41,631 nucleotides of DNA from Candidatus Krumholzibacteriota bacterium (GTDB lineage Bacteria > Krumholzibacteriota > Krumholzibacteriia > Krumholzibacteriales > Krumholzibacteriaceae): assembly GCA_030667985.1 (NCBI GenBank), contig DAOUUU010000005.1:1-41631 (forward strand). Reading direction: 5' to 3'. The notes beneath the pieces were generated by a model, which did not search any database, was not told the DNA's origin, and saw nothing but the letters and a program-made list of their open reading frames with translations. Made by a program: the position numbers and the translations under genes. How positions within the stretch are numbered: the first letter of the stretch is position 1; every line of letters begins with the position of its first letter. Below, piece by piece: positions 22,640 through 35,662 of this stretch.

Positions 22640-23398
22640 GTGAAAGATTCCATCATCTTTCTATCTGATACGCATTTTTCTTATCATACCGACGATGAGA
22701 AGGAAAGCAAAAAACGAGCTCTCTTCCTCGACTTCCTGAACCACATCGAGGGTGTCGGCAACCTTTACCTCCTCGGCGATATCTTCGACTTCTGGTTCGA
22801 GTACCGGAGTTTCGTCCCGAAATACTACCACGAGATCCTCGACGGCCTTCACCACCTCGTAAAAAGCGGGAGCCGTGTATCGATAATGGGCGGGAACCAC
22901 GATTACTGGCTCGGCAGCTACATCTCCGAAACACTTGGGATGAAGTTGCTTCCGCAGCTTGTGACACATGATCTCCAGGGCAGGAGGATAACGATGACCC
23001 ATGGAGATATGCTCCTGCCCGGCGATTACGCCTATAAGGCCTTGAAGGCGGTGATCCGCAACCCCCTTGTCATCTCGATCGCCCGCATTGTTCACCCCGA
23101 TATCCTGTACGGATTCGCGCGCAATTTCTCACGGGCAAGCAAGGGTGTGACCCACAAAAAGACGAAACGGGTGGCAGAAAAGGTACTGGAGATCGCGAAG
23201 GAGAGGTTCTTTGAATGGGACAATGATACGTTCATGATGGGGCACGTTCATCTTCCCATGATGGAAAACTTCGGCGAGAAGACCTTCGTGATGCTCGGCG
23301 ATTGGGAAGAGCACTTCTCCTATTGTCTACTAGAGGGAGGCAATCTGTCGCTGGAGTATTACGGGCCCGATGTCCCGACGCTGAGCGAGAGTCGGTGA
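22640..23398 (+). CDS. lpxH: UDP-2,3-diacylglucosamine hydrolase-like metallophosphoesterase (LpxH family)
   Basis: A calcineurin-like phosphoesterase resembling LpxH, which removes UMP from UDP-2,3-diacylglucosamine in lipid A synthesis at the inner membrane. All metal-binding blocks are present: SDTHF, GDIFDFWFEY, GGNHDYWLG, THGD and GHVH. The frame is open from a TTG at 22565, but the GTG at 22640 has a GAGGAGAGG ribosome site and puts the first catalytic Asp nine residues in, as in other family members (252 residues). The coding end overlaps the convergent PorV-like gene by 40 bp. A related phosphoesterase with another substrate is possible, since FCB genomes often have several of these proteins. 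Confidence 0.85.
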   Translation: MKDSIIFLSDTHFSYHTDDEKESKKRALFLDFLNHIEGVGNLYLLGDIFDFWFEYRSFVPKYYHEILDGLHHLVKSGSRVSIMGGNHDYWLGSYISETLGMKLLPQLVTHDLQGRRITMTHGDMLLPGDYAYKALKAVIRNPLVISIARIVHPDILYGFARNFSRASKGVTHKKTKRVAEKVLEIAKERFFEWDNDTFMMGHVHLPMMENFGEKTFVMLGDWEEHFSYCLLEGGNLSLEYYGPDVPTLSESR

Positions 23399-24288
23399 CT
23401 GTCACCGATACCGTACTCGATCGGCATGAATGCGTAATCGAACCGCAGGTTCTTGTACCTCAATCCCAGACCCATCGTCAGTCCCTGAACGTAATAGTTT
23501 CCCTTGTAACCTGCGCGGATCGACAGGTATCGATCGTAGTTGTATTCAGCGCCGACATGCATCTTCGTATCATTGTCGTTGGGAAATACTATGTCGGTCG
23601 CGGCTATCAGGTCGCCGTGCAGCCAACCGGCGGTATATAGGTATGCGGCCCCTATCCTGGCCTGGAAGGGTGGATAGAACTTCTCCTCGACGAACTTGGC
23701 CTGCGGTCCCAGGTTGAGAAGCGAAGCGGCCAGCGTGAGTCCCTCTATCATGCTCTTGTGCGTCACGCCGAGATCGACAGCCCAGCTCGTCGCCGATTCG
23801 AAATCGATCTTGGAATGGATGAGTTTCGCCGACGCTCCCGCCGCGAGATTCGGCAGGACATCCATCCCGTATCCGGCCGCCAGGGCGAAATCGTAGGGAG
23901 AAAAGGTCCCGTCCGGAGTAAGGCTCGGATAATCGCCGTACCGTTCCAGGTCGCCGTAGAAAAGACCCGTGAAACTGAGCCCCACCGCGCCACCCAACAT
24001 CTCGTTCACGACAGAGATCTGTTCGAAGCGCGTATCTACGAGCCATTCTGTGTGAGAAAGATTGAGCTCCACATCGTCGACACTCGCCAGACCCGCCGGA
24101 TTCCAGTATATGCTCGTCGCATCATCAGCCACGGCGGTGAAGGCCTCACCCATACCGCTCGCTCGCGCCCCGTTTCCGAGGCGAAGGAATACGAATCCGC
24201 TCGTTCCAGGCTCTCCCGCCCCGGCATCGGTGCATGCCAGGATGATGATAAGCGCTGCTGCCAGGGTTATGGTTCGACGTAACATCAC
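23359..24288 (-). CDS. PorV/PorQ-like outer-membrane beta-barrel protein
   Basis: The 309-residue product has a signal peptide (to about residue 24) and a barrel that begins GFVFLRLGNGARASGMGEAF, then TAVADDATSIYWNPAGLA. This is the signature opening of the PorV/PorQ (UPF0164) group related to FadL-type barrels. PorV acts in the type IX secretion system by shuttling cargo at the outer membrane, whereas other members have no known role. The presence of proteins with T9SS-type C-terminal domains at 24.4 and 36.8 kb supports a secretion link. Promoter and a strong GAGGAGGAG ribosome site lie just upstream. The 3' end overlaps lpxH on the other strand by 40 bp. Confidence 0.85.
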   Translation of the reverse strand: MMLRRTITLAAALIIILACTDAGAGEPGTSGFVFLRLGNGARASGMGEAFTAVADDATSIYWNPAGLASVDDVELNLSHTEWLVDTRFEQISVVNEMLGGAVGLSFTGLFYGDLERYGDYPSLTPDGTFSPYDFALAAGYGMDVLPNLAAGASAKLIHSKIDFESATSWAVDLGVTHKSMIEGLTLAASLLNLGPQAKFVEEKFYPPFQARIGAAYLYTAGWLHGDLIAATDIVFPNDNDTKMHVGAEYNYDRYLSIRAGYKGNYYVQGLTMGLGLRYKNLRFDYAFMPIEYGIGDSHRLSLSVGTSGP

Positions 24289-24316
24289 TCCTCCTCAATC
24301 TGCGGACTGTGTTCTA

Positions 24317-24345
24317 ATTGTAATGAATAACCGCCCGCCGGTCAA
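24317..24345 (-). promoter_or_regulatory. Sigma70 promoter of the PorV-like gene
   Basis: TTGACC (24345-24340), exactly 17 bases, TACAAT (24322-24317); both hexamers match at 5/6. The predicted start near 24310 leaves a 22-base leader containing GAGGAGGAG. Confidence 0.65.
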
Positions 24346-24443
24346 CTTCCATATATCTCCATGCTTGTGCGTATTATTCATATATTCCAACGATCGCTCG
24401 GATTATAAACGATTTACTCTCCTCCGCCGATCCGTTGCTCTGT

Positions 24444-27400
24444 TCACTTGATCACCGCCACCTTCTTGACACCCTCCCAATCCTTGGGTCCCTTTACTAC
24501 TAAACGGCAGATATAGATGCCCGCGGCAAGATTTTTCGTAGGAATCCTTTCCTCGAACGGAATGAGGCTGCCGGAGGCCGATTCGTGCCTGCTCTGCACC
24601 GAGTAGACGACCTCACCCTCCAGATTGAAAAGTGTTATCCCTACGACGCCGGCATAATCGTGAAGCATTACGCGCACCGTAAAGTAATCGCCCTTGGCAG
24701 GATTGGGATAGCAGATGAAGCTGCGCTCGTCGATGTGATCATATCGGATAAACTGTACCGGTATAGCCTGGTTGGAGCTCCCCAGGAAGTCGCGTCGGAA
24801 AAAGGGCCAGCTGGTATGCAGAAACTCCGCATCAGGGAGAATCTGGCGCCGGAGGGACGAGCTCGTAACCGCTCCCGTTTCACCGAGTCGATCGTAGGAC
24901 CCGGCGACAAAGAGATAGAGCCCTTCATCCTCGGTTTCAACCAGCATTGGAGTCGACGGGCTTCTCCCCTCGCCGGGGATGGGCCAGCCGTCCAGAAGCG
25001 ATCCGGCCAACGAAAAGGCGTAGAGATCTCCTCCCACTCTGAAGATCACATCGCTCTTAATGTCTCCGTCGAGGTCCGCTATAACAGGCGAGGCATGAGC
25101 CGATCCGTTCTCGAGGTCGAGAAGGGCCTGCGGTATATCCTTGGGCCATTCGTTAGCCAGCGCTCCGAATCCCTGAAAGATATAGAGCTTGTACCTGTTC
25201 CTCAGTACCGTCTCCATCGCCCCGTCCTGGTCGAGATCGGCAAATGCGGGGGGAGAGATGCTTGTGCCCCCCAGCTCGATCACATGAAAGTCTCCGAGGG
25301 GGTGGTAATATATCAGTCCCACTCCCTGAATGGTGAAGACTCCCACATCACCTGGATAATACGAATCATGGATGTTTCCCGCCGCTGGTGTGCAGAGCGA
25401 TCGGGGAGCACTCCCCAGTGTTCCAACCAGTCGTGAGATCGGTTCGATGGACTGTTCGAAGGTGATGTATCTGGGAAGCAGAGGTATGTAGTTCACGAAG
25501 AGATCGCCCTCGTCCCTCAGCGTGGCGATGTAGAGCCCCTCGTAATCGATGGCGAGATCCAGATCCCTAACCCTCCCCCATGCAGGATGGGAGAGCAGCC
25601 TCCCCTCCATGAGGGACAGCCGAATGATATCGGTGCCGGCCGTCTCCCAATCCGATCCCTCCCAGGTTTCGGAGAACCCGACTATATAGAGGAAGGTGCT
25701 GTCGGCAGTCGAGCAGAGAAGAATGACCTCACTGTATATATCTCCGTCGAGTTCCGCAGCGATCGGCGCCGCAGAGAGATCGCCCTCAAGGCGCAGTGAT
25801 CCCAGGGCGGACGGATCACCCACCGGATAGGGCGTGCCGTCTGTGTGGAAAGCGTAGAACATACCGTCCAATGTTGTGATAAAGATGCCGAGCATACCGT
25901 CCACACCCGCATTGCAGGCAATTGGCGGACCGGACCATACTGCGTCCGCTATCGATACGATTGTGTCGATCTCACCAGCCCAGTCGGCCGAGCTCACGTT
26001 GTAAGCGTAGAGTACCAGGCCGGTATCGACCGCTGTCACAAGGTCGTTTCTGCCTGAATAATAATTTATGGCAACAGGACTCAACTCTCTCACATAACCG
26101 GGCAAATCGACGCGGACCATCTCGCTGGAAGCATCAAAGGTCACGGCAAGATCCATGTATTCGCCGGGAGCCGAGATGCCGTCGACGAGGATCCCCGATT
26201 CCAGACCGGAATTGCCGCGGCTCCATGGATTGGTCCCGGGACCAAAGCTCGTATTGACCCCATCCCTGAAGGAATCGATATAGCTGCCGAAGGAATGGCT
26301 GCCGCCCGGCCTGTCGAGGTCCTGTACGCCGTCCGCCTCCTCGAGATCGACCCCCTTGAGCGATGCGTCGTCGTTCGGATACCCTCCAGCGGCGAGCTGA
26401 CCGAGGATCACACCCTCGTCTATATGCCAGATAAGCAAACCGCTTCCCGTGTCGACTCCCCCTTCTGGCAGATCGGGATTTGTCGTCGCGGTGAGAAAGA
26501 AATCGAACTCGGCGCCGAGCAGCGTGTCCTTGTTTCCCGGAATACCGAGGACCGTATCCACATTGATGAAATCGAACAGTCCGTTCCAGTTGGTATCGTG
26601 GACCCTGTTGCCGATCAGAAAGTACTCCGAGGGACTCACCGAGAGCCTCACGAGCGACGTATCGGCAATATCAGCAGCATTTATATCCTTGAGGCGTATC
26701 CCTGCATCCGCCTCGACATCGACCACATCGACCCAACCCATCAGATACCTGTGAAAGGCGCACGGGAAGGCTGGTATGAAGCCTGCGGCGTTGTAGATTC
26801 CGTACCCCATCAGGCCGAAGCTCCCGATCCCCTGCGAATCGGGGAAGGAGCCGGGAGTCGTATCGAAGAGAGGGATCATGCCGACTCTCAGCCCGATCTG
26901 ATAGGCGTATATTCCGAGGGAACCGAATATGTACTCGTCCTGTGACGCCTGTGCCGGACATACTATTACATTGTCGATATAATAGATCTCTCCCCCTATC
27001 AGATCGTCGGTCGGTATGCCCGGTGTGCCAAGAGTGTCGGCAATCGCCTCGGCCATCTCCTCCGGATCGAGAAACCCGGACCAGAGCTGATAGGGCGAAT
27101 CACCCTCAAAATCTGTCTCCTGGCCGGAGCTCGAGTGTATGAAGGCTATTCCCCCGTACTGTGAGAAATCGACGATATCGTCGATCGCCTCGACGACCTC
27201 CATAACCATCTCCGAGATACGGATCTCCCACACTCCATCCTCGCCGTAGTAGCCCTCCTCCCTGCTCAGGGGAACCTCCTCGGGATAGAGCGGGACATCC
27301 AGTGTGAACCGGGAGAGGGACGCGCCGTCGTAGTACTCGCGCAGGTGCCTAAGTTCGTTCTCGAAGTAGAGGAAATCGTGAGGATTTCCGTCTGCTCCGA

Positions 27401-27659
27401 TGCCGAAACCCTTGTCGGAGAACGATACCCTGATGACGAGCAGAGAAAGCGAATCGACGGGCGCTATGGATCCGGCCGAAAGGCGGATGAGTGACTCCCG
27501 CTGGAAGAGACCGATCTTCTCGCTGACCCTGGGTCTCGATAGAGGCATCGGGGGAATAGATTCTCCCCGCGAGTGATCGCTTCCCGCGAGTAACATCAAT
27601 ATTATCGCTAATATGCTTCTCTTCATGAGAGGTGGATAATAACGGAGCAGGTCTTTCAT
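24444..27659 (-). CDS. Secreted M6-peptidase-like protein with dead active site, beta-propeller-type repeats and T9SS sorting domain
   Basis: The 1071-residue protein has a signal peptide (hydrophobic segment about 13-26). Residues about 60-420 follow the layout of M6 (immune inhibitor A-like) metallopeptidase domains: an N-terminal Rossmann-like part, FIHSSSGQETDFEGDSPYQL, then SLGIYAYQIGLRVGMIPLFD and SQGIGSFGLMGYG. In active members the second block carries HExxH; here the five residues 253-257 read YQIGL, so both zinc histidines and the catalytic glutamate are absent. Residues about 560-960 contain FG-GAP/VCBS-like repeats (LDQDGAMETVLRN, ADLDGDIKSDVIFRV). The last 90 residues (CYPNPAKGDYFTVRV onward) form a T9SS type A sorting domain. 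It may be a binding or adhesive protein. The start codon is uncertain (27659 or 27626). Confidence 0.85.
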   Translation of the reverse strand: MKDLLRYYPPLMKRSILAIILMLLAGSDHSRGESIPPMPLSRPRVSEKIGLFQRESLIRLSAGSIAPVDSLSLLVIRVSFSDKGFGIGADGNPHDFLYFENELRHLREYYDGASLSRFTLDVPLYPEEVPLSREEGYYGEDGVWEIRISEMVMEVVEAIDDIVDFSQYGGIAFIHSSSGQETDFEGDSPYQLWSGFLDPEEMAEAIADTLGTPGIPTDDLIGGEIYYIDNVIVCPAQASQDEYIFGSLGIYAYQIGLRVGMIPLFDTTPGSFPDSQGIGSFGLMGYGIYNAAGFIPAFPCAFHRYLMGWVDVVDVEADAGIRLKDINAADIADTSLVRLSVSPSEYFLIGNRVHDTNWNGLFDFINVDTVLGIPGNKDTLLGAEFDFFLTATTNPDLPEGGVDTGSGLLIWHIDEGVILGQLAAGGYPNDDASLKGVDLEEADGVQDLDRPGGSHSFGSYIDSFRDGVNTSFGPGTNPWSRGNSGLESGILVDGISAPGEYMDLAVTFDASSEMVRVDLPGYVRELSPVAINYYSGRNDLVTAVDTGLVLYAYNVSSADWAGEIDTIVSIADAVWSGPPIACNAGVDGMLGIFITTLDGMFYAFHTDGTPYPVGDPSALGSLRLEGDLSAAPIAAELDGDIYSEVILLCSTADSTFLYIVGFSETWEGSDWETAGTDIIRLSLMEGRLLSHPAWGRVRDLDLAIDYEGLYIATLRDEGDLFVNYIPLLPRYITFEQSIEPISRLVGTLGSAPRSLCTPAAGNIHDSYYPGDVGVFTIQGVGLIYYHPLGDFHVIELGGTSISPPAFADLDQDGAMETVLRNRYKLYIFQGFGALANEWPKDIPQALLDLENGSAHASPVIADLDGDIKSDVIFRVGGDLYAFSLAGSLLDGWPIPGEGRSPSTPMLVETEDEGLYLFVAGSYDRLGETGAVTSSSLRRQILPDAEFLHTSWPFFRRDFLGSSNQAIPVQFIRYDHIDERSFICYPNPAKGDYFTVRVMLHDYAGVVGITLFNLEGEVVYSVQSRHESASGSLIPFEERIPTKNLAAGIYICRLVVKGPKDWEGVKKVAVIK

Positions 27660-27809: not shown

Positions 27810-28766
27810 CTAGAGATGCTCCTCCTCGTAGGTGCTACCCTCTCTTAACGATGGGGGGTAAAGTCGACCAAGCTTTATTTCAAACTCTTTCGAGTTTTCA
27901 TCCGGTTTCGAATCGTCATCTTCCGGGCGCGGGGCAAAATCCCTGTTTCCCGGATCGGTCTGGTAGGCCCAGTAGAATGTCACATAGTTAGGCGTCACTT
28001 CGATGACGGTGATCTTCGCGTAGTGTATCCCGTCACTCTCCAGTATCTGCATGACATAACAGTGCCCTACGATCGCTTCCGTCTTCCGGGTCGGAGCCCA
28101 GCCCATCTCGGGGGCGTAGTTGATGCCGTCGTAGGAACCCTGGCTCGTCCCAACAAATCCGTAATCCTGGATCTCGACGCCGGCCCGGGCCCCGACGATA
28201 TGGGGGATATCCTGAGCCAGCTCGTTCCCAATGACATCGAAGAAGATATCTGTGCTCGCGAGTGTATAGTCCTGCGCCACGTTAGTGAGCCCGGCGAAAT
28301 TGTATCCGCTCTGCAAGGGCAACTGATCGACTTCGTTCAGTGTCAGCGGTTCTCCCAGAGGATTCTCGTAACGGGCGGTGGCCGTCACATAATCGGGGCT
28401 GTAATCGCTTCTCAGTCCGCCCGTATCTACAGCCCTGACCGCATAGAAGTACTGTACGCCGTTATCAACATCATAATCGAAACGGTACTCATAGGGCTGG
28501 GGATATGTCGCATTGACATCACCGATCCATTCGAAGGGACCCTCCCACGCATAGGATCGGAATATCTCGTAGTAATCGATATCGTTCACATAGCTCGGAT
28601 ACCAGTAGATGAATATGTAGCCGTCCACGTTGGTCACAGAGACGCCTGTGGGCGAGGGCGGTGTACAGTTGACTGCAACAGGGACCTCGACGATCCTCTC
28701 CTCGCCGCTGCAGGAGAGCAGAAGCAGGAAAATCATCATGGTCGCTATCAGTGTTATCCTCATCAT
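27810..28766 (-). CDS. Lipoprotein with fibronectin type III-like domain, under a sigma54-type promoter
   Basis: The 318-residue protein opens with a signal peptide ending LLLSCSG, a lipobox. Residues about 35-130 form an FN3-like domain (SPTGVSVTNVDGYIFIYWYP, then YYEIFRSYAW and YFYAVRAVDTGGLRSDYS). The remaining 190 residues have no family I can recognise; they are rich in Tyr, Asp and Gly and include a likely globular part near GFVGTSQGSYDGINYAPEMG. The C-terminus is acidic and probably disordered. It should be an envelope lipoprotein. An AAAGGA site precedes the ATG, and a near-ideal sigma54 promoter is centred at 28800, so its expression is presumably regulated by an enhancer-binding protein. 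Confidence 0.8.
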   Translation of the reverse strand: MMRITLIATMMIFLLLLSCSGEERIVEVPVAVNCTPPSPTGVSVTNVDGYIFIYWYPSYVNDIDYYEIFRSYAWEGPFEWIGDVNATYPQPYEYRFDYDVDNGVQYFYAVRAVDTGGLRSDYSPDYVTATARYENPLGEPLTLNEVDQLPLQSGYNFAGLTNVAQDYTLASTDIFFDVIGNELAQDIPHIVGARAGVEIQDYGFVGTSQGSYDGINYAPEMGWAPTRKTEAIVGHCYVMQILESDGIHYAKITVIEVTPNYVTFYWAYQTDPGNRDFAPRPEDDDSKPDENSKEFEIKLGRLYPPSLREGSTYEEEHL

Positions 28767-28792
28767 CTTGTCCTTTCTATCACTCTATACTC

Positions 28793-28807
28793 GCAACTGA
28801 TGTGCCA
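28793..28807 (-). promoter_or_regulatory. Sigma54 (RpoN) promoter of the FN3 lipoprotein gene
   Basis: Minus strand TGGCAC (28807-28802), five bases (ATCAG), TTGC (28796-28793) is an exact match to the -24/-12 consensus TGGCAC-N5-TTGC. The start site would be near 28782, 16 bases before the ATG at 28766, leaving an AAAGGA ribosome site at the usual place. The two AAA+ activators encoded at 29.6-34.7 kb are natural candidates to act here. Confidence 0.7.
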
Positions 28808-28947
28808 GATATACTATTGAGCGTCCATTAGCTCGGTGCGGCCGAGAATTATTAGTATAACTGCTTGTAATTCCGTGAGATAAAAACCGGCGTCAGGTTG
28901 GATCGCCTTCCAAGGGTGTGGCTCCGGAGACGAGAGAACCGGCCTTG

Positions 28948-28991
28948 CCTGTCGTCAAGTGTCTACAAATTCGTCCTCTCAATGGGACAGG
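28948..28991. repeat. Inverted repeat upstream of the sigma54 promoter
   Basis: CCTGTC (28948-28953) and GACAGG (28986-28991) are complementary 6-base arms about 150-200 bases upstream of the sigma54 site. This distance is typical of enhancer-binding protein sites, but the arms are short and far apart and could be chance. It lies inside the 28767-29648 gene-free stretch. Confidence 0.2.
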
Positions 28992-29071: not shown

Positions 29072-29161
29072 GCAGGGGCATAAGATGCGAGCACCGGAGG
29101 GGATGTCCATACTCGCACGCCTTATGAATCTCGCCATTCCTAAGGATACTCATACCCCTGC
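29072..29161. ncRNA. Candidate structured RNA or bidirectional terminator element
   Basis: GCAGGGG (29072-29078) pairs with CCCCTGC (29155-29161). Inside, TAAG and TGCGAG (29081-29090 region) pair with CTCGCA and CTTA (29112-29124 region), and a small hairpin sits in the remaining part near CCTAAGG. On the plus strand the closing stem is directly followed by TTTTCTCTT; on the minus strand a U run (CTCTTTTTCC) follows 17 bases later. The strand and whether it is a gene are undecided. Nothing matches a family I know. Confidence 0.35.
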
Positions 29162-29216
29162 TTTTCTCTTCATCGAAGGATAAGACAGCCGAGGTATTTG
29201 GCTCAACCCTTTTTTA

Positions 29217-29328
29217 ACAAAAAAATACCGGGGAAACACCTCATTTTCCCGTCCTAGAGACCCCACCGTTCCCCTGTAAAATTCCTTCAGGAGAGCTTAA
29301 GAACAGGACTACTCAGTATTTCCCCGGT
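29217..29328 (-). ncRNA. Candidate small RNA ending in an intrinsic terminator
   Basis: On the minus strand a perfect 10-base stem joins ACCGGGGAAA (29328-29319) to TTTCCCCGGT (29236-29227), directly followed by AUUUUUUU (to 29219). Nested within it, GTCCT pairs with AGGAC, and then CC-GTTC with GAAC-GG, giving a stacked, bubble-containing rod like that of 6S or SRP RNAs, though no diagnostic family sequence is present. A sigma54-like promoter at 29372-29386 would start transcription near 29360, giving an RNA of about 140 bases. No reading frame with a credible start fits. It lies upstream of, and on the same strand as, the FN3 lipoprotein gene. Confidence 0.45.
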
Positions 29329-29371
29329 TGCCGTTCCTCATTCGCCAACCGATACCCGATTTATATAACTG

Positions 29372-29386
29372 GCAAGCATCATACCA
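29372..29386 (-). promoter_or_regulatory. Sigma54-like promoter before the candidate small RNA
   Basis: TGGTAT (29386-29381), five bases, TTGC (29375-29372) on the minus strand. It keeps GG and GC at the required 10-base separation and 8 of 10 consensus bases. A chance match is possible; its position 44 bases before the stem-loop RNA makes it notable. Confidence 0.4.
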
Positions 29387-29648
29387 TGATCACCGGCACA
29401 GGAGCAAACCGACTGCATTACATAACGATTTGTATTTCAATGGATTACGAGCGCGAATGGATACCGCGGCGTTTCAAATATAGCGGATGAATTATTCACC
29501 TGGAAATCGACATTCCACTCAGGGCAGTAATCCACATAACCACTTTACATACAATGAGTTGCGTTGTTAAAACTCTTTATAGGGGAAGGCAAGCAACATA
29601 ATAGATGCGCTGCAGGTCGAATCGAGTAATCGAAATAGAGTGGTGATT

Positions 29649-32600
29649 TTATTGCGTTTCTTCGATCTCGTACTCGCGGATCTTCTTCAGAAGGGTGGGA
29701 TAGCTTATGCCGATCTCGCGAGCCGCCGCGCTCCGGTTCCACTCGAAGCGTTTCAGCGTCTCGGTGATCGTGCGCTTCTCGAGAGCGCGGACGAGGTCGG
29801 GCAGGTTCGACGAGGCGGCCCTGGGCTCGCTCCGATCGGTGCCCATGTTGAACATCAGCAGGTCGGGTGTGATCAGCGTGTTATCATCTGCGAGTATTAT
29901 GGCCCGCTTGACGATCTTCTCCAGCTCACGGACATTGCCGGGCCATCTGTAGGATTCAAGATGGCGGACGGCCTCGTTCGAGATGCCGAGGATCCTCCTC
30001 TTCATCTCCTTACTGATCAAGTCGATGTAGTGGCGCGCCAGGATCTCTATATCCTCGGTCCGATCCCTGAGCGGTGGGATCGTAAGCGGAAAATCGTTTA
30101 TACGGTAGTAGAAATCCTCCAGCATCATCCCTTCGCCGCAAAGCGCGAGCAAATCGACCTTGGACGCGAAGATCAACCTGACATCGACGCCGGTCATCTC
30201 GTTGCCGCCCACCGGCCTGATCTTCCTCGAGTCGAGGAATTGAAGCAGCTTGCCCTGTAAAGGAAGAGGAGTCTTTCCGATCTCATCGAGGAACAGTGTG
30301 CCGCCGTCGGCCTCCTCGAGCAAACCCTTCTTGTTGGCATAGGCTCCTGTAAAGGAACCCTTTACGTGACCGAATAGCTCACTCTCGATGATGTTCTCCG
30401 GTAATGCGGCACAGTTGACATGGATAAACTTCTTGTCCCGCCTCGGGCTCAGCCGGTGGATCGTCTCCGCGATGAGCCCCTTGCCGGTTCCCGTCTCACC
30501 CATGAGCAGCACGGTCGAATAGGACGAGGCGACCCTCTCGGAGAGATTTAGGATGCGCAGCATCTGCTCGTCCCGCGTGATGATGCTGTGAAGCCCCCGG
30601 CGAACGAGCGTGGGATCGAGCTCATGCTTGTCGGATCCGCAGTCTGTAAAATTCTTGATCATAAATCCTATGAAATCCGCATATGTGGCAGCCACCTCTA
30701 TCTTCGACCCAAGCTTGGGCGGCCCCCCGTTATCTCCCGGGTACTGGAAGAAGAGCAGGCAGTAGGGCTCGCCCTTCGCGCAGATCGGATGGAAGTAGAC
30801 GGGCGCGTCACGGCCGGGAAGAATATCCCTGATACCGGCGAGCCGTTTGTCATGCTCAGTATCGGTCAGCAGCAGCCCGGAGTTCATGTCGATATCGTCT
30901 CTCTCGACGAACCACCGCGCGAGCCTTGCCGACACATCCTCATCTACACCGCTGCGCACGAGCGTATGGATCTTCCTGTGACCGTTACCGCGGCCGTACA
31001 TCGCTACAAAACCGTGGCCGGCGGACATCTTCCGCATCAGATCCCCCAGGATCGTCTCGAGGTATGACCTGAGCTGCGGCTCTTTCGAGAAGAGTCCGGT
31101 GAATTCCTCGCTGAGCGAGAACTCCCTGGATTCGTTCGAGAGCGATTCTGTGACCTTGTCCTCGAGAGTTTTCCTCACCCTCTTGATGCGTCTCTGGAGC
31201 TTACGGTCCTGAAGATCCTCTGCTAGCCGCTGCGCCTCGTATACGTGGAGCAGGCATTCATCCCTGTTGCCGATCTCACGCTCGAGCCTGGCAAGGATGA
31301 AGTGACTCTCTGCGAGATCGTCGAAATCCTCGTTCTTTTCGAAGAAGGAGAGGGCGTCCTCGATAAGTTTCTTTGCGCGGAGCAGGGAATGACGATCGTT
31401 TTTCCTCTGTAGATAATCACCGAGCAGATAGCATGAGCGGTTTGCCTGGTAGGGATTGTTCATTCCGAGAAATGTCGAGACGCTCGCTTCTATATGCCTC
31501 TCCGCCTCTTCCCTCTTTCTCAGGAGGACATAGGCGAGCCCGATAGTCCGCTGCGCGAATCCGAGCTCGTGTTTCTCCCCGCATTTGTCGGCTATTTCGG
31601 CAGACCGCTTCCCCGTCCTTACAGCGTCCTCGGGCTTGCGCTGCAGGAGGTAGAGGTGAGCCATGCGGCGGAGGACTTCGGCCACGATATCGCCGGTCGG
31701 ATTGAGCTTCTTTCCCGCTGCGAACGCTATGGAATAGTTCTCCTCTGCGCCTTCTAAGTCTCCGCGCTCGAGCATCAGGTCGCCGAGGAACTCGTCCGAG
31801 AGCGCGATCTCGCGTTTGTAGCTCCTCCGCTCGGACAGCACGCGCGCCTCGAGCAAATGCTTCTCGGCCGCTGTGAGGTTGCCCGTATGAGTCTCCGCGA
31901 CACCGAGCATCAGAGTAGCCCTTGTGTATTTGAGATCGTCACCCGCCTGGCGCGCCATCTTTCTGGCGTTCGTCAGAGTGCTTACCGCTTCGGGGAACTC
32001 GCGCTTTTTAAGGTGAACGACCCCCAGGTTCAGAGTCACACGGATACGAACATGGGTAAGGCCAAACTCATCGCAGAGCCCGAGGGCCCGCTGAAGGAAA
32101 TCGAGCGACCTTCCCCAGCGGCATGCGTTCTTGTGAAACAGTCCGAGGTTGTTCAGTATGTTCGCTTCGCCTACGGGATCGTTTATCCTGCGGAAGCTCG
32201 AGAGGGAATCGAGAAAACACTGTTCCGCCTCGTCATGCTTGCCTAGCCTGAAATAGCAGTTCGCCATCAGCACCTGTGTGTCGGCGACCTCCTTGTGCTC
32301 GTCTGTGAGACGGAGCGTTCTGTATGCGGCGAGACCCTCGCGGAGTGCCTTATCCGACTCTCCATGCTCTAAGAGTATAAAGCCCCGCCTGCAGGCGATA
32401 GACGCCTTTGCGATCTCGTCATCATCCTGGCAGTGGGAGGCTGCGCTCTGAAGGAATGCCATCGCTTCTCGCAGCATGCCCTTCTTAAAATAGCAGTTGC
32501 TGATCTTGCGGTAGAACCTTACGAGATCGGAGGGTGTGGCTGTGATATGGGATTTCTGAACTGCCTTCTCGTAATACTCGAGCGCCACGGAGTAGTGCTC

Positions 32601-32714
32601 GGTCGAAAAGTGCATATCCCCGAGCTCTTCCTCGGTGGTTAGGGGCTTATATTTGTGCTTCGGCGGTCTCTTCTCGTACTCGAAACCTTCATTTCCGCCT
32701 TGGTTATCGGGCAT
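29649..32714 (-). CDS. TPR - sensor - AAA+ sigma54 activator - Fis HTH regulator
   Basis: This 1021-residue cytoplasmic regulator has an N-terminal array of tetratricopeptide repeats (about 30-490, for example AVALEYYEKA-type helices and NLGVVHLKKREFPEAVSTL), a GAF-like sensor segment (about 560-700) and a sigma54-interacting AAA+ domain (about 715-945). Walker A is GETGTGKG (739-746), the sigma54-contacting loop reads GSFTGA (786-791) in place of GAFTGA, Walker B is TLFLDEI, and WPGNVRELE contains the arginine finger region. A Fis-type helix-turn-helix closes it (about 980-1018, NRSAAAREIGISYPTLLKKI). No receiver or PAS domain is seen, so control is probably through TPR partner binding or the GAF-like ligand. 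It sits just upstream of the sigma54-driven lipoprotein gene. Confidence 0.92.
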   Translation of the reverse strand: MPDNQGGNEGFEYEKRPPKHKYKPLTTEEELGDMHFSTEHYSVALEYYEKAVQKSHITATPSDLVRFYRKISNCYFKKGMLREAMAFLQSAASHCQDDDEIAKASIACRRGFILLEHGESDKALREGLAAYRTLRLTDEHKEVADTQVLMANCYFRLGKHDEAEQCFLDSLSSFRRINDPVGEANILNNLGLFHKNACRWGRSLDFLQRALGLCDEFGLTHVRIRVTLNLGVVHLKKREFPEAVSTLTNARKMARQAGDDLKYTRATLMLGVAETHTGNLTAAEKHLLEARVLSERRSYKREIALSDEFLGDLMLERGDLEGAEENYSIAFAAGKKLNPTGDIVAEVLRRMAHLYLLQRKPEDAVRTGKRSAEIADKCGEKHELGFAQRTIGLAYVLLRKREEAERHIEASVSTFLGMNNPYQANRSCYLLGDYLQRKNDRHSLLRAKKLIEDALSFFEKNEDFDDLAESHFILARLEREIGNRDECLLHVYEAQRLAEDLQDRKLQRRIKRVRKTLEDKVTESLSNESREFSLSEEFTGLFSKEPQLRSYLETILGDLMRKMSAGHGFVAMYGRGNGHRKIHTLVRSGVDEDVSARLARWFVERDDIDMNSGLLLTDTEHDKRLAGIRDILPGRDAPVYFHPICAKGEPYCLLFFQYPGDNGGPPKLGSKIEVAATYADFIGFMIKNFTDCGSDKHELDPTLVRRGLHSIITRDEQMLRILNLSERVASSYSTVLLMGETGTGKGLIAETIHRLSPRRDKKFIHVNCAALPENIIESELFGHVKGSFTGAYANKKGLLEEADGGTLFLDEIGKTPLPLQGKLLQFLDSRKIRPVGGNEMTGVDVRLIFASKVDLLALCGEGMMLEDFYYRINDFPLTIPPLRDRTEDIEILARHYIDLISKEMKRRILGISNEAVRHLESYRWPGNVRELEKIVKRAIILADDNTLITPDLLMFNMGTDRSEPRAASSNLPDLVRALEKRTITETLKRFEWNRSAAAREIGISYPTLLKKIREYEIEETQ

Positions 32715-32757: not shown

Positions 32758-33096
32758 CTAATGGGTCAGGCCGAATTTCAGATTAGCGACGGTATCGGTA
32801 TCCATTCCAGCAGTGAGATCATTCAACCCATCATCCCCCATCCGATCATTCGACTTTCCGCCTCCCAAGTCATCCGCATCCCCCTGTAGCTTGGGCTCTC
32901 CCGAATCATCGATGATGATCCGAACGAAATCCCTGCCATTGTAGGCGGACACTCCCAGACCGAAGATCTGATGGTATACCATCCTCATGATAACCAGGGT
33001 CCGGGATTCGTATGAACGCGGGGCGGCCAGAACCGGAGGGGAAGAGAGATGTACGATCACCAGAACGGCAGTCAACAGCAGCATTATCTTTTTCAT
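32758..33096 (-). CDS. Small secreted protein of unknown function
   Basis: The frame is open from a TTG at 33114, but the ATG at 33096 fits best: GGAAGGGG precedes it and the protein then starts MKKIMLLLTAVLVIVHLSSP, a signal peptide ending near PVLAA (112 residues). The mature chain has an N-terminal part that resembles no family I know (SYESRTLVIMRMVYHQIF) and an acidic, glycine-rich second half (GDADDLGGGKSNDRMGDDG) that is probably disordered. It lies 43 bp upstream of the TPR regulator gene on the same strand and may be its first operon partner. A promoter and a short leader hairpin (33117-33131) precede it. Confidence 0.65.
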   Translation of the reverse strand: MKKIMLLLTAVLVIVHLSSPPVLAAPRSYESRTLVIMRMVYHQIFGLGVSAYNGRDFVRIIIDDSGEPKLQGDADDLGGGKSNDRMGDDGLNDLTAGMDTDTVANLKFGLTH

Positions 33097-33306: not shown

Positions 33307-34686
33307 TTAATCAGTATCTTCGGCCGATTCCTTCCTCACATCGATCCCGTACTTCTCGATCTTCTTGTATAGATTGCTTCGCTGCATTCCGAGCTGCCGG
33401 GCCGTCTTCGAGACATTCTCGTTGTTCTCGTGCAGTTTTTTTACCAGAAACTCCCTCTCGGTAAAATCCTTGAAATCCTGATAGGTCCTGAAACCGAACG
33501 GATCCTTTCTCATATCCACTTTTCGGGCAAGCACGAGCGGGGGCAGATCCTCCACTCCTATCTCCTCTTTCGGTACCAGTATGCATAGACGCTCGATCAG
33601 GTTCCCCAGCTCGCGGACATTGCCGGGCCACGAGTAATCGAGCAGCATGTCGCGAGCGCTTCGCTTCAGCTTCTTGGGCGGCAGGCCGAGATCCTCGGCT
33701 ACCTGGAGCAGGAAATGATCGACAAGCAGCTCGATGTCCGATTTGCGCTCACGAAGAGGAGGTATCTTTATTGGAACGACATTCAAACGGTAGTAGAGAT
33801 CCTCTCTGAAATCACCCCCGCCAGCCGCTTCTAGAAGATCCTTGTTCGTCGCTGCTATTACGCGGACATCGACTCTCTTCGTCTCGGTCCCTCCGACACG
33901 CTCGAATGTCGATTCCTGCAGGACCCGCAGCACCTTGGCCTGCGCGGACAGACTCATATCGCCGACCTCGTCTAGAAAGAGGGACCCCCCATCGGCGACC
34001 TCGAATTTTCCTATGCGCTGGGAGATGGCGCCTGTGAACGAACCCTTCTCGTGACCGAACAGGGCGCTTTCTATCAGATCCTCAGGTATAGCGGCGCAGT
34101 TGACCTCGATGAATGGTTCGGCGGCCCTCTTGCTCATCTCGTGCAGCTTTCTGGCGATCAGTTCCTTGCCTGTCCCGTTCTCTCCCATGATGAGCACCCG
34201 GGCGTTGGTCGGAGCGACCCGTTCGACCGTCTCGAGAATCGAGAGGATATCCGGATGCTCTCCGACGATCTCGGTCCGCATCTTCACCTGTTCCCTCAGC
34301 TGAACGTTCTGCTGGGAGAGTCTTCCCTGCTTGATGCCGTTCCGTACGGTCAGGAGCAGCCGGTCCAGATCAATCGGCTTTTCGAGGAAATCGAAGGCTC
34401 CGAGCTTCGTCGCCTCGACGGCCGTCGCTATATTCCCGTGACCGGATATGATGACAATCGGGAGATCGGTCTGGATATCCTTCATCTTCTGAAGCACTTC
34501 GAGCCCGTCCATTCCAGGCATCTTGATATCGAGGAGTACGAGATCGACCAACTCGCTACCCACGACTTCGAGCGCGGACTCTCCGTCAGCCGCAGTGAAT
34601 GTAGCGTATTTCTCATAGGCGAGAAGCTTCTCGAGCGATTTTCTGATGCTCTCCTCATCATCGACTATCAACACTCGCTTACTCAT
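33307..34686 (-). CDS. NtrC-family response regulator
   Basis: This 459-residue protein is a sigma54-dependent response regulator. The receiver domain (about 1-120) has the acidic pair at the start (VLIVDDEES), the phosphorylation Asp in LVLLDIKMPGM (residue 53) and the Lys in FLEKPID. The AAA+ domain (about 140-385) has Walker A GENGTGKE, GSFTGA as the sigma54 loop, SLFLDEVGDMSL and WPGNVRELGN. A Fis-type helix-turn-helix is C-terminal (about 412-450, NVSKTARQLGMQRSNLYKKI). It overlaps the Ppx/GppA-like gene by 8 bases; the ATG at 34686 is preferred over the TTG at 34689 because GGGGGA lies 9 bases upstream. No histidine kinase is encoded in the window, so its partner is unknown. Confidence 0.93.
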   Translation of the reverse strand: MSKRVLIVDDEESIRKSLEKLLAYEKYATFTAADGESALEVVGSELVDLVLLDIKMPGMDGLEVLQKMKDIQTDLPIVIISGHGNIATAVEATKLGAFDFLEKPIDLDRLLLTVRNGIKQGRLSQQNVQLREQVKMRTEIVGEHPDILSILETVERVAPTNARVLIMGENGTGKELIARKLHEMSKRAAEPFIEVNCAAIPEDLIESALFGHEKGSFTGAISQRIGKFEVADGGSLFLDEVGDMSLSAQAKVLRVLQESTFERVGGTETKRVDVRVIAATNKDLLEAAGGGDFREDLYYRLNVVPIKIPPLRERKSDIELLVDHFLLQVAEDLGLPPKKLKRSARDMLLDYSWPGNVRELGNLIERLCILVPKEEIGVEDLPPLVLARKVDMRKDPFGFRTYQDFKDFTEREFLVKKLHENNENVSKTARQLGMQRSNLYKKIEKYGIDVRKESAEDTD

Positions 34687-35662
34687 CAATGTAATCCCCC
34701 GTTATCGAATATTTTATCAAGCTCTCTTCGGCCGTCACCACTCCCCATCGCAGATCCCTCCCTGTTACGAAGAACCCGGAAACACGCATCGCGCGAAGGA
34801 GCGATGCCATAAACGCGAGACCGGGAAGCAGCAGCCGGACCCGTTCCGGTTCGAGAGGGAGCCTCCTCTCGAACCCGGCTTGGAAGAGCCCACGCAATCT
34901 CCGAATAACAAATTCGAGCATACCGGCCGGGACGGCCGTGGGTTCTGCGAAGGCCGGCTCCCGCTCTTTCATATAGCGTAATATCACGGCAAGGCTCACG
35001 GCCGTGCCGCCAGTAGCAAGGATTGTAGGCCTTTGACCCTTATTCGGCAAGGTATAATGCAGCCCGATCGAATCCTCCAGCGCTCGTACAGCCGAATAAC
35101 ATGGAACCGTGAGGATGTTGCGGTATCCCCTCGATATCATCGCCCCTGCAATGTGGGCGCCCAAGGGGAGTCCCTCGAACCCATCCATGATCCCTCCGCT
35201 TCCCCATGCGATCTCTGTGCTCGTCCCCCCCACGTCGACGAGTAGAACGGGCCCGTTACCCCTGACAACAGAGCTGGCCCCCAAGAATCCGAGAGCGGCC
35301 TCACCCCTCTGCGACAGAACCGTGATCGGCCGGCCGGCGAGCCTCTCGAGTAATGAATGCGCCGCATCCCCGTTCAGGGCGGATCTCATCGTGTTGGTGG
35401 CCGCCAGGATCGGGTGCTCGCAGCCGGACCGTTCCGCCGCCCGGAGTAGCCTCTCGAGGGCATGAGCCGCGCGCGCTATACCGCTTTCCCCGATCACTCC
35501 TCCCCTGGCAACCGAATCTCCCCACCCGACATATTCCTTATCGTCGCAGAGCACCTCGGCCTCGCCCGACGGCCCGGGGCAGACTACCAGGAGCCTGAAA
35601 TAGCTGCTCCCCAGGTCGATACATCCTCTGATCGTCCTTTTTTTATTGGGCATCATCATCAC
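34679..35662 (-). CDS. Ppx/GppA-family phosphatase (actin-like fold)
   Basis: The 327-residue protein has the actin-like ATPase fold of exopolyphosphatase/pppGpp phosphatases: phosphate-1 loop CIDLGSSYFRLLVV, TNTMRSALNG, a LSQRGEAALGFLGA segment, phosphate-2 loop LLVDVGGTSTEIAWG and adenosine loop ATGGTAVS. The length equals the two-domain core only, without the C-terminal HD extension of long Ppx proteins. The role could be polyphosphate or (p)ppGpp breakdown; sequence alone does not separate these. The gene starts with GTG followed by three ATG codons, so the exact N-terminus is unclear. It overlaps the response regulator gene, suggesting that its signal state may be linked to that regulator. 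Confidence 0.88.
   Translation of the reverse strand: MMMMPNKKRTIRGCIDLGSSYFRLLVVCPGPSGEAEVLCDDKEYVGWGDSVARGGVIGESGIARAAHALERLLRAAERSGCEHPILAATNTMRSALNGDAAHSLLERLAGRPITVLSQRGEAALGFLGASSVVRGNGPVLLVDVGGTSTEIAWGSGGIMDGFEGLPLGAHIAGAMISRGYRNILTVPCYSAVRALEDSIGLHYTLPNKGQRPTILATGGTAVSLAVILRYMKEREPAFAEPTAVPAGMLEFVIRRLRGLFQAGFERRLPLEPERVRLLLPGLAFMASLLRAMRVSGFFVTGRDLRWGVVTAEESLIKYSITGDYIDE

Follow-up and report, generated by a model that had tools for sequence, protein, structure and literature searches.

Does the sigma54 promoter that precedes a lipoprotein gene in Candidatus Krumholzibacteriota answer to the large sigma54 activator encoded directly upstream, or do activator and promoter belong to different regulatory units? 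The locus lies in a stretch of 41,631 nucleotides (contig DAOUUU010000005.1; hereafter the window), and all features given with coordinates below are on its minus strand. The original prediction had joined the activator and the lipoprotein gene as a regulator-and-target pair, with a second, NtrC-type activator nearby.

The gene of the FN3 lipoprotein (27810-28766, 318 aa) had been assigned an exact TGGCAC-N5-TTGC promoter, and the motif is present as described: site B (28793-28807) reads TGGCACATCAGTTGC, stands 26 bases 5' of the ATG at 28766, possesses the GG and GC dinucleotides at -24/-12 with the fixed spacing and predicts a transcription start at ~28782. It is the sole exact match in the window. 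Genome-wide there are 13 exact matches, as opposed to two with the pattern read backwards, hence exact sigma54 sites are enriched in this genome, which encodes one RpoN and 15 strong sigma54-activator domains. Inspection of the other exact sites placed several before genes for what we take to be lipoprotein-like, secreted, PilM-like or MglA-like proteins, and some inside long reading frames. Exact sites lie before MglA-like, PilM-like, lipoprotein and secreted-protein genes at loci L037, L030, L034, L035, L038 and L039, and those of L038 and L039 are near sigma54-activator genes.

Homologues of the lipoprotein were found by protein search in 99 of 146 related genomes; the close relatives belong to Candidatus Krumholzibacteriota or UBP1, and further homologues occur in Zixiibacteriota, WOR-3, Ignavibacteria, Eisenbacteria, Poribacteria, KSB1 and other groups. 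An exact TGGCAY-N5-TTGC precedes the gene in 25 of the 30 best lipoprotein loci (the window included), and the remaining five have it with one mismatch. In the FCB-wide set, where the search covered the 200 nt before each estimated start, the site is exact in 41 and has one mismatch in 34 of the 80 homologues (75/80), compared to 0/80 at up to one mismatch in the reversed sequence used as control. This FCB-wide conservation is the strongest support for the lipoprotein promoter as originally predicted. Sigma54 control of the lipoprotein is thus strongly supported by sequence comparison, and its transcription would be RpoN-dependent.

The structure model of the lipoprotein (mean pLDDT 80.4) matches FN3 domains of the PDB over ~100 residues in a fold search, and Pfam fn3 was found in 4 of 20 family members. 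An HmuY-like fold, suspected for the C-terminal domain, was supported neither by Pfam nor by the fold search. The gene order RlmN, (Ppx), NtrC, TPR activator, gap, lipoprotein, M6-like, PorV-like and LpxH-like is largely kept in the class (Krumholzibacteriia). The pairing of activator and lipoprotein gene is broken in genomes of family f4, where the lipoprotein was not found beside the activator, and of f3, where it is displaced. A large secreted protein (23359-27659) with a weak Por_Secre_tail match, labelled as an M6 protease by eye, and a PorV/UPF0164-like gene come after the lipoprotein across much of the class, and their position beside it suggests a type IX-like secretion link.

The upstream activator is indeed a TPR/AAA+/Fis-HTH protein of 1021 aa (29649-32714), with an AAA+ sigma54-interaction domain (PF00158), a DNA-binding HTH (PF02954) and, in its translation, a GSFTGA variant of the GAFTGA loop. 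With residues 1-705 as the query, it was detected in 76 of 80 class genomes, nearly always as a single copy, and nowhere outside the class at E <= 1e-30. The claimed second activator is an NtrC-type response regulator (33307-34689), which we regard as the candidate activator of site B. The gap between the two activator genes was searched for a sigma54 site and none was found. A 112-aa secreted protein (MKKIMLLL...GDADD...; 32758-33096) is encoded in this gap, directly upstream of the TPR activator; it has a sigma70-like promoter and is kept in families f1 and f2.

Between the TPR activator and the lipoprotein lies a gap of 880 bp, in which no convincing ORF was found; it holds a second sigma54-like site and two predicted RNAs, all overlooked in the original prediction. 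Site A (29372-29386; TGGTATGATGCTTGC) has one mismatch to the consensus and a predicted start at ~29361, and it occupies a similar position after the TPR stop codon across the class. With up to one mismatch it was found at 28 of 40 class loci compared to 2/40 in reversed sequence; with up to two mismatches at 40/40 compared to 6/40, a level of matching that shuffled sequence reaches in ~1/6 of trials. In f1 the site departs from the consensus, and some genera have a degenerate version with TTGA or ATGC as the -12 element. In class loci, a conserved RNA block begins 13-15 nt past the -12 element of site A; in f1 the distance to the conserved block GGTATCGGTTGGCGAA is 14-15 nt, which is close to the expected sigma54 start. 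Upstream of site A, candidate UAS-A elements, AT-rich, dyad-like and loosely defined, lie at 29581-29565 and 29550-29536 (29536-29581 overall).

RNA1 (approximately 29219-29361, conserved block from 29356, GUGGGG element at 29267-29257) is a predicted rod of ~140 nt with a terminal stem and T-run in most relatives; in f1, its GUGGGG element falls outside any clear local hairpin. RNA2 (29073-29160, GGCGAGA loop at 29137-29129) folds into a closing stem and two hairpins, with a terminal stem and T-run in many relatives, and is preceded by a candidate sigma70 promoter (29177-29206), weak in the window and TTGAC..TATAAT-like in relatives. By sequence comparison, both RNAs are conserved and structured. 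In RNA1, whose structure was derived from the same alignment as its pair counts, 94.5% of cells are paired over 32 pairs, 12 of which have changes on both sides; in RNA2 the values are 96.9%, 29 pairs and 10 pairs, respectively. For either RNA, 500 shuffles that keep relatedness never matched the observed pairing percentage, double-change counts or covariation score; slid controls pair 36-56% of cells. According to covariance models, RNA1 is found in 17 of 80 class genomes (f1 only) and RNA2 in 19 of 80 (f1 and f2), with one copy in each. The RNA1 segment GGUGGGG (29267-29261) complements CCCCUCC of RNA2 (29102-29096) except for one U-U; both segments are invariant in the alignments, which puts this pairing beyond the reach of covariation.

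Other families of the class have a longer, divergent RNA in the same place, ~330 nt in some of them, and in f7 and f8 the RNA start is joined to a sigma54 site, once in each of five genomes. On the sense strand, GTGGGG is present at 39/39 class loci (5/39 antisense, 14/39 reversed) and GGCGAGA at 27/39 (4 antisense, 0 reversed); by an automatic test the former falls within a hairpin loop in 18/39 loci and the latter in 14/39. When hairpins of the two kinds were compared across families, 96.3% of cells were paired with 14 double-change cells for GUGGGG, and 89.4% with 17 double-change cells for GGCGAGA; since these hairpins were picked by hand, the figures reflect stem covariation where a hairpin exists, not the frequency of hairpins. 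Rfam, searched against the window and the class-locus stretches for RNA1, RNA2 and the class-wide RNA, gave no relevant match, Qrr and GlmY/GlmZ included.

The RNA stays with the TPR activator gene where the lipoprotein does not follow. In an f4 genome (G026), site A, the RNA and a ClpB-like gene come after the TPR gene in this order, and no lipoprotein homologue was found in the stretch examined; in a further f4 genome (G030) no lipoprotein was found after the TPR gene, although these two cases may stem from one ancestral event. In an f3 genome (G025), 4.2 kb separate the lipoprotein from the TPR gene. Site A and an RNA of the class-wide kind adjoin the TPR gene in each of these three genomes, with no N runs between. 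This implies that the tightest regulator-target pair of the locus is the TPR activator and the noncoding RNA, and that the unit they form is separable from that of the lipoprotein. Two further genomes, G005 and G042, were dropped as natural separations owing to 100-N scaffold gaps at the breaks; in these single-contig genomes (loci L231, L230 and L074) such gaps lie in or near the locus, and rearrangements there are unreliable. In G026 (L232), an exact sigma54-like site is located ~730 nt past the TPR stop codon, ~25 nt before the ClpB-like gene.

Can these elements be explained more simply? A ten-base motif may arise by chance, and two of the exact sites of the genome do fall inside long reading frames; site B itself can hardly be such a match, given a site in 75/80 homologues against 0/80 in the control and a sigma54 site at each of the 30 best loci. 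That the gap codes for small peptides rather than RNAs is very improbable: some genomes have what reads like a start codon at AUGGCGAGA within RNA2, but the frame differs between the window and its relatives, the indels are not multiples of three, and compensatory changes keep the base-pairing in RNA1 and RNA2. As the two RNAs share strand and order upstream of the lipoprotein gene, they might also be cis-acting, serving as leaders or terminators in a long transcript that reads into that gene. We consider this improbable, because a stem and T-run end RNA1 in most relatives and, in many of them, RNA2, a separate promoter stands near the start of the lipoprotein gene, and the RNA is kept where the lipoprotein does not follow.

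Which activator serves which promoter? About 182 bp upstream of site B lies UAS-B (28950-28989), consisting of the two dyads TGTCCCATTGAGAGGACG (28989-28972) and TGTAGACACTTGACGACA (28967-28950). Most class loci have this element (TGTCC-N8-GGACA), placed ~160-195 bp before site B. Krumholzibacteriota and a few others account for nearly all close matches in the FCB-wide set, and among the exact sigma54 sites of the own genome only site B has one. The distances between UAS-B and site B (161-195 bp) give a helical phasing resultant length of ~0.61, which we do not take as proof because the sequences are non-independent. That the TPR activator drives both sites, with the RNA and the lipoprotein as two outputs of one regulator, would fit two observations: activator, RNA and lipoprotein are syntenic across most of the class, and UAS-B is nearly restricted to this class, in which the TPR activator occurs. 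We nevertheless find it doubtful. The motifs upstream of sites A and B look unlike each other, and the lipoprotein promoter is kept in phyla in which no TPR activator was found. Moreover, a genome outside the class (G136) has two perfect copies of UAS-B, while its only matches to the TPR activator lie in the shared AAA+/HTH part; it encodes an orthologue of the NtrC-type regulator (58% identity, compared to 49% for the next best). This combination makes it more likely that site B is served by the NtrC-type regulator and site A by the TPR activator, an assignment based on one outgroup genome and on orthology by best match. Of the regulator-target pair originally predicted, the sigma54 promoter of the lipoprotein is thus strongly supported, whereas the TPR protein as its dedicated regulator is not, in view of G136, of the phyla that have the promoter but in which this activator was not found, and of the genomes where the TPR gene keeps the RNA and site A away from the lipoprotein. 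It is also conceivable, though unlikely, that the RNA serves the TPR activator, or a dedicated RNA-binding protein, as a ligand or cofactor by means of its invariant GUGGGG and GGCGAGA elements; if so, this would be an RNA-controlled sigma54 activator feeding back on its own RNA and not an ordinary base-pairing small RNA.

The arrangement resembles known systems in part. As with Qrr and LuxO/SypG in the Vibrionaceae (PMC10162802), a sigma54-dependent regulatory RNA would adjoin the gene of its enhancer-binding protein, with paired upstream activating sequences before the promoter and more than one activator involved. Unlike Qrr, which is encoded opposite luxO, the RNA described here lacks an Rfam match, reaches ~330 nt in some families and follows its neighbouring activator gene on one strand; that activator is a TPR protein and no response regulator of the LuxO type. 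Similarly to GlmY/GlmZ with GlrR (QseF) and QseG of E. coli (PMC7073468), a sigma54 activator, a sigma54-driven small RNA and an envelope lipoprotein would be found in one circuit; QseG, however, is the signalling partner of the kinase, whereas here the lipoprotein is itself a predicted sigma54 target with an FN3 domain, and the RNA again has no Rfam match. Francke et al. (2011; PMC3162934), in the part of their survey considered here, present sigma54 as a controller of the bacterial exterior with promoters at lipoprotein and envelope genes, which agrees with the several other exact sites of this genome that precede lipoprotein-like or secreted proteins; that part is a general survey and does not mention this lipoprotein family or the RNA. 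A literature search yielded no paper joining Krumholzibacteriota with sigma54, or Krumholzibacteri with noncoding RNA.

We propose, with a probability of about 0.72, that the locus comprises two separate sigma54 units on one strand: one in which the TPR activator acts on site A to produce the RNA, and one in which site B and UAS-B, plausibly driven by the NtrC-type regulator, serve the lipoprotein. In the first unit, site A, located past the TPR activator gene and most likely activated by its product, would drive a free-standing structured noncoding RNA, followed in f1 and f2 by a second RNA that is apparently sigma70-driven. The RNA may act in trans through its invariant loops, GUGGGG and, in several families, GGCGAGA, either by pairing with mRNAs or by binding a protein. 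In the second unit, site B together with a separate enhancer dyad would direct transcription of the FN3 lipoprotein gene without a tie to the TPR activator, and the adjacent NtrC-type regulator plausibly acts there. Sequence comparison shows that both promoters, the RNAs with their structure and the gene order are conserved, and that the two units come apart. The assignment of activators to promoters, like the dependence on RpoN and the mode of action of the RNA, is what we infer from these comparisons. Across the FCB group, the association of sigma54 with a single lipoprotein family is unusually deep for a promoter and a gene, and this depth points to a core envelope function. For an uncultured lineage, the locus would provide a defined, testable circuit, composed of an RNA family without an Rfam match, a sigma54-like promoter and a companion activator gene.
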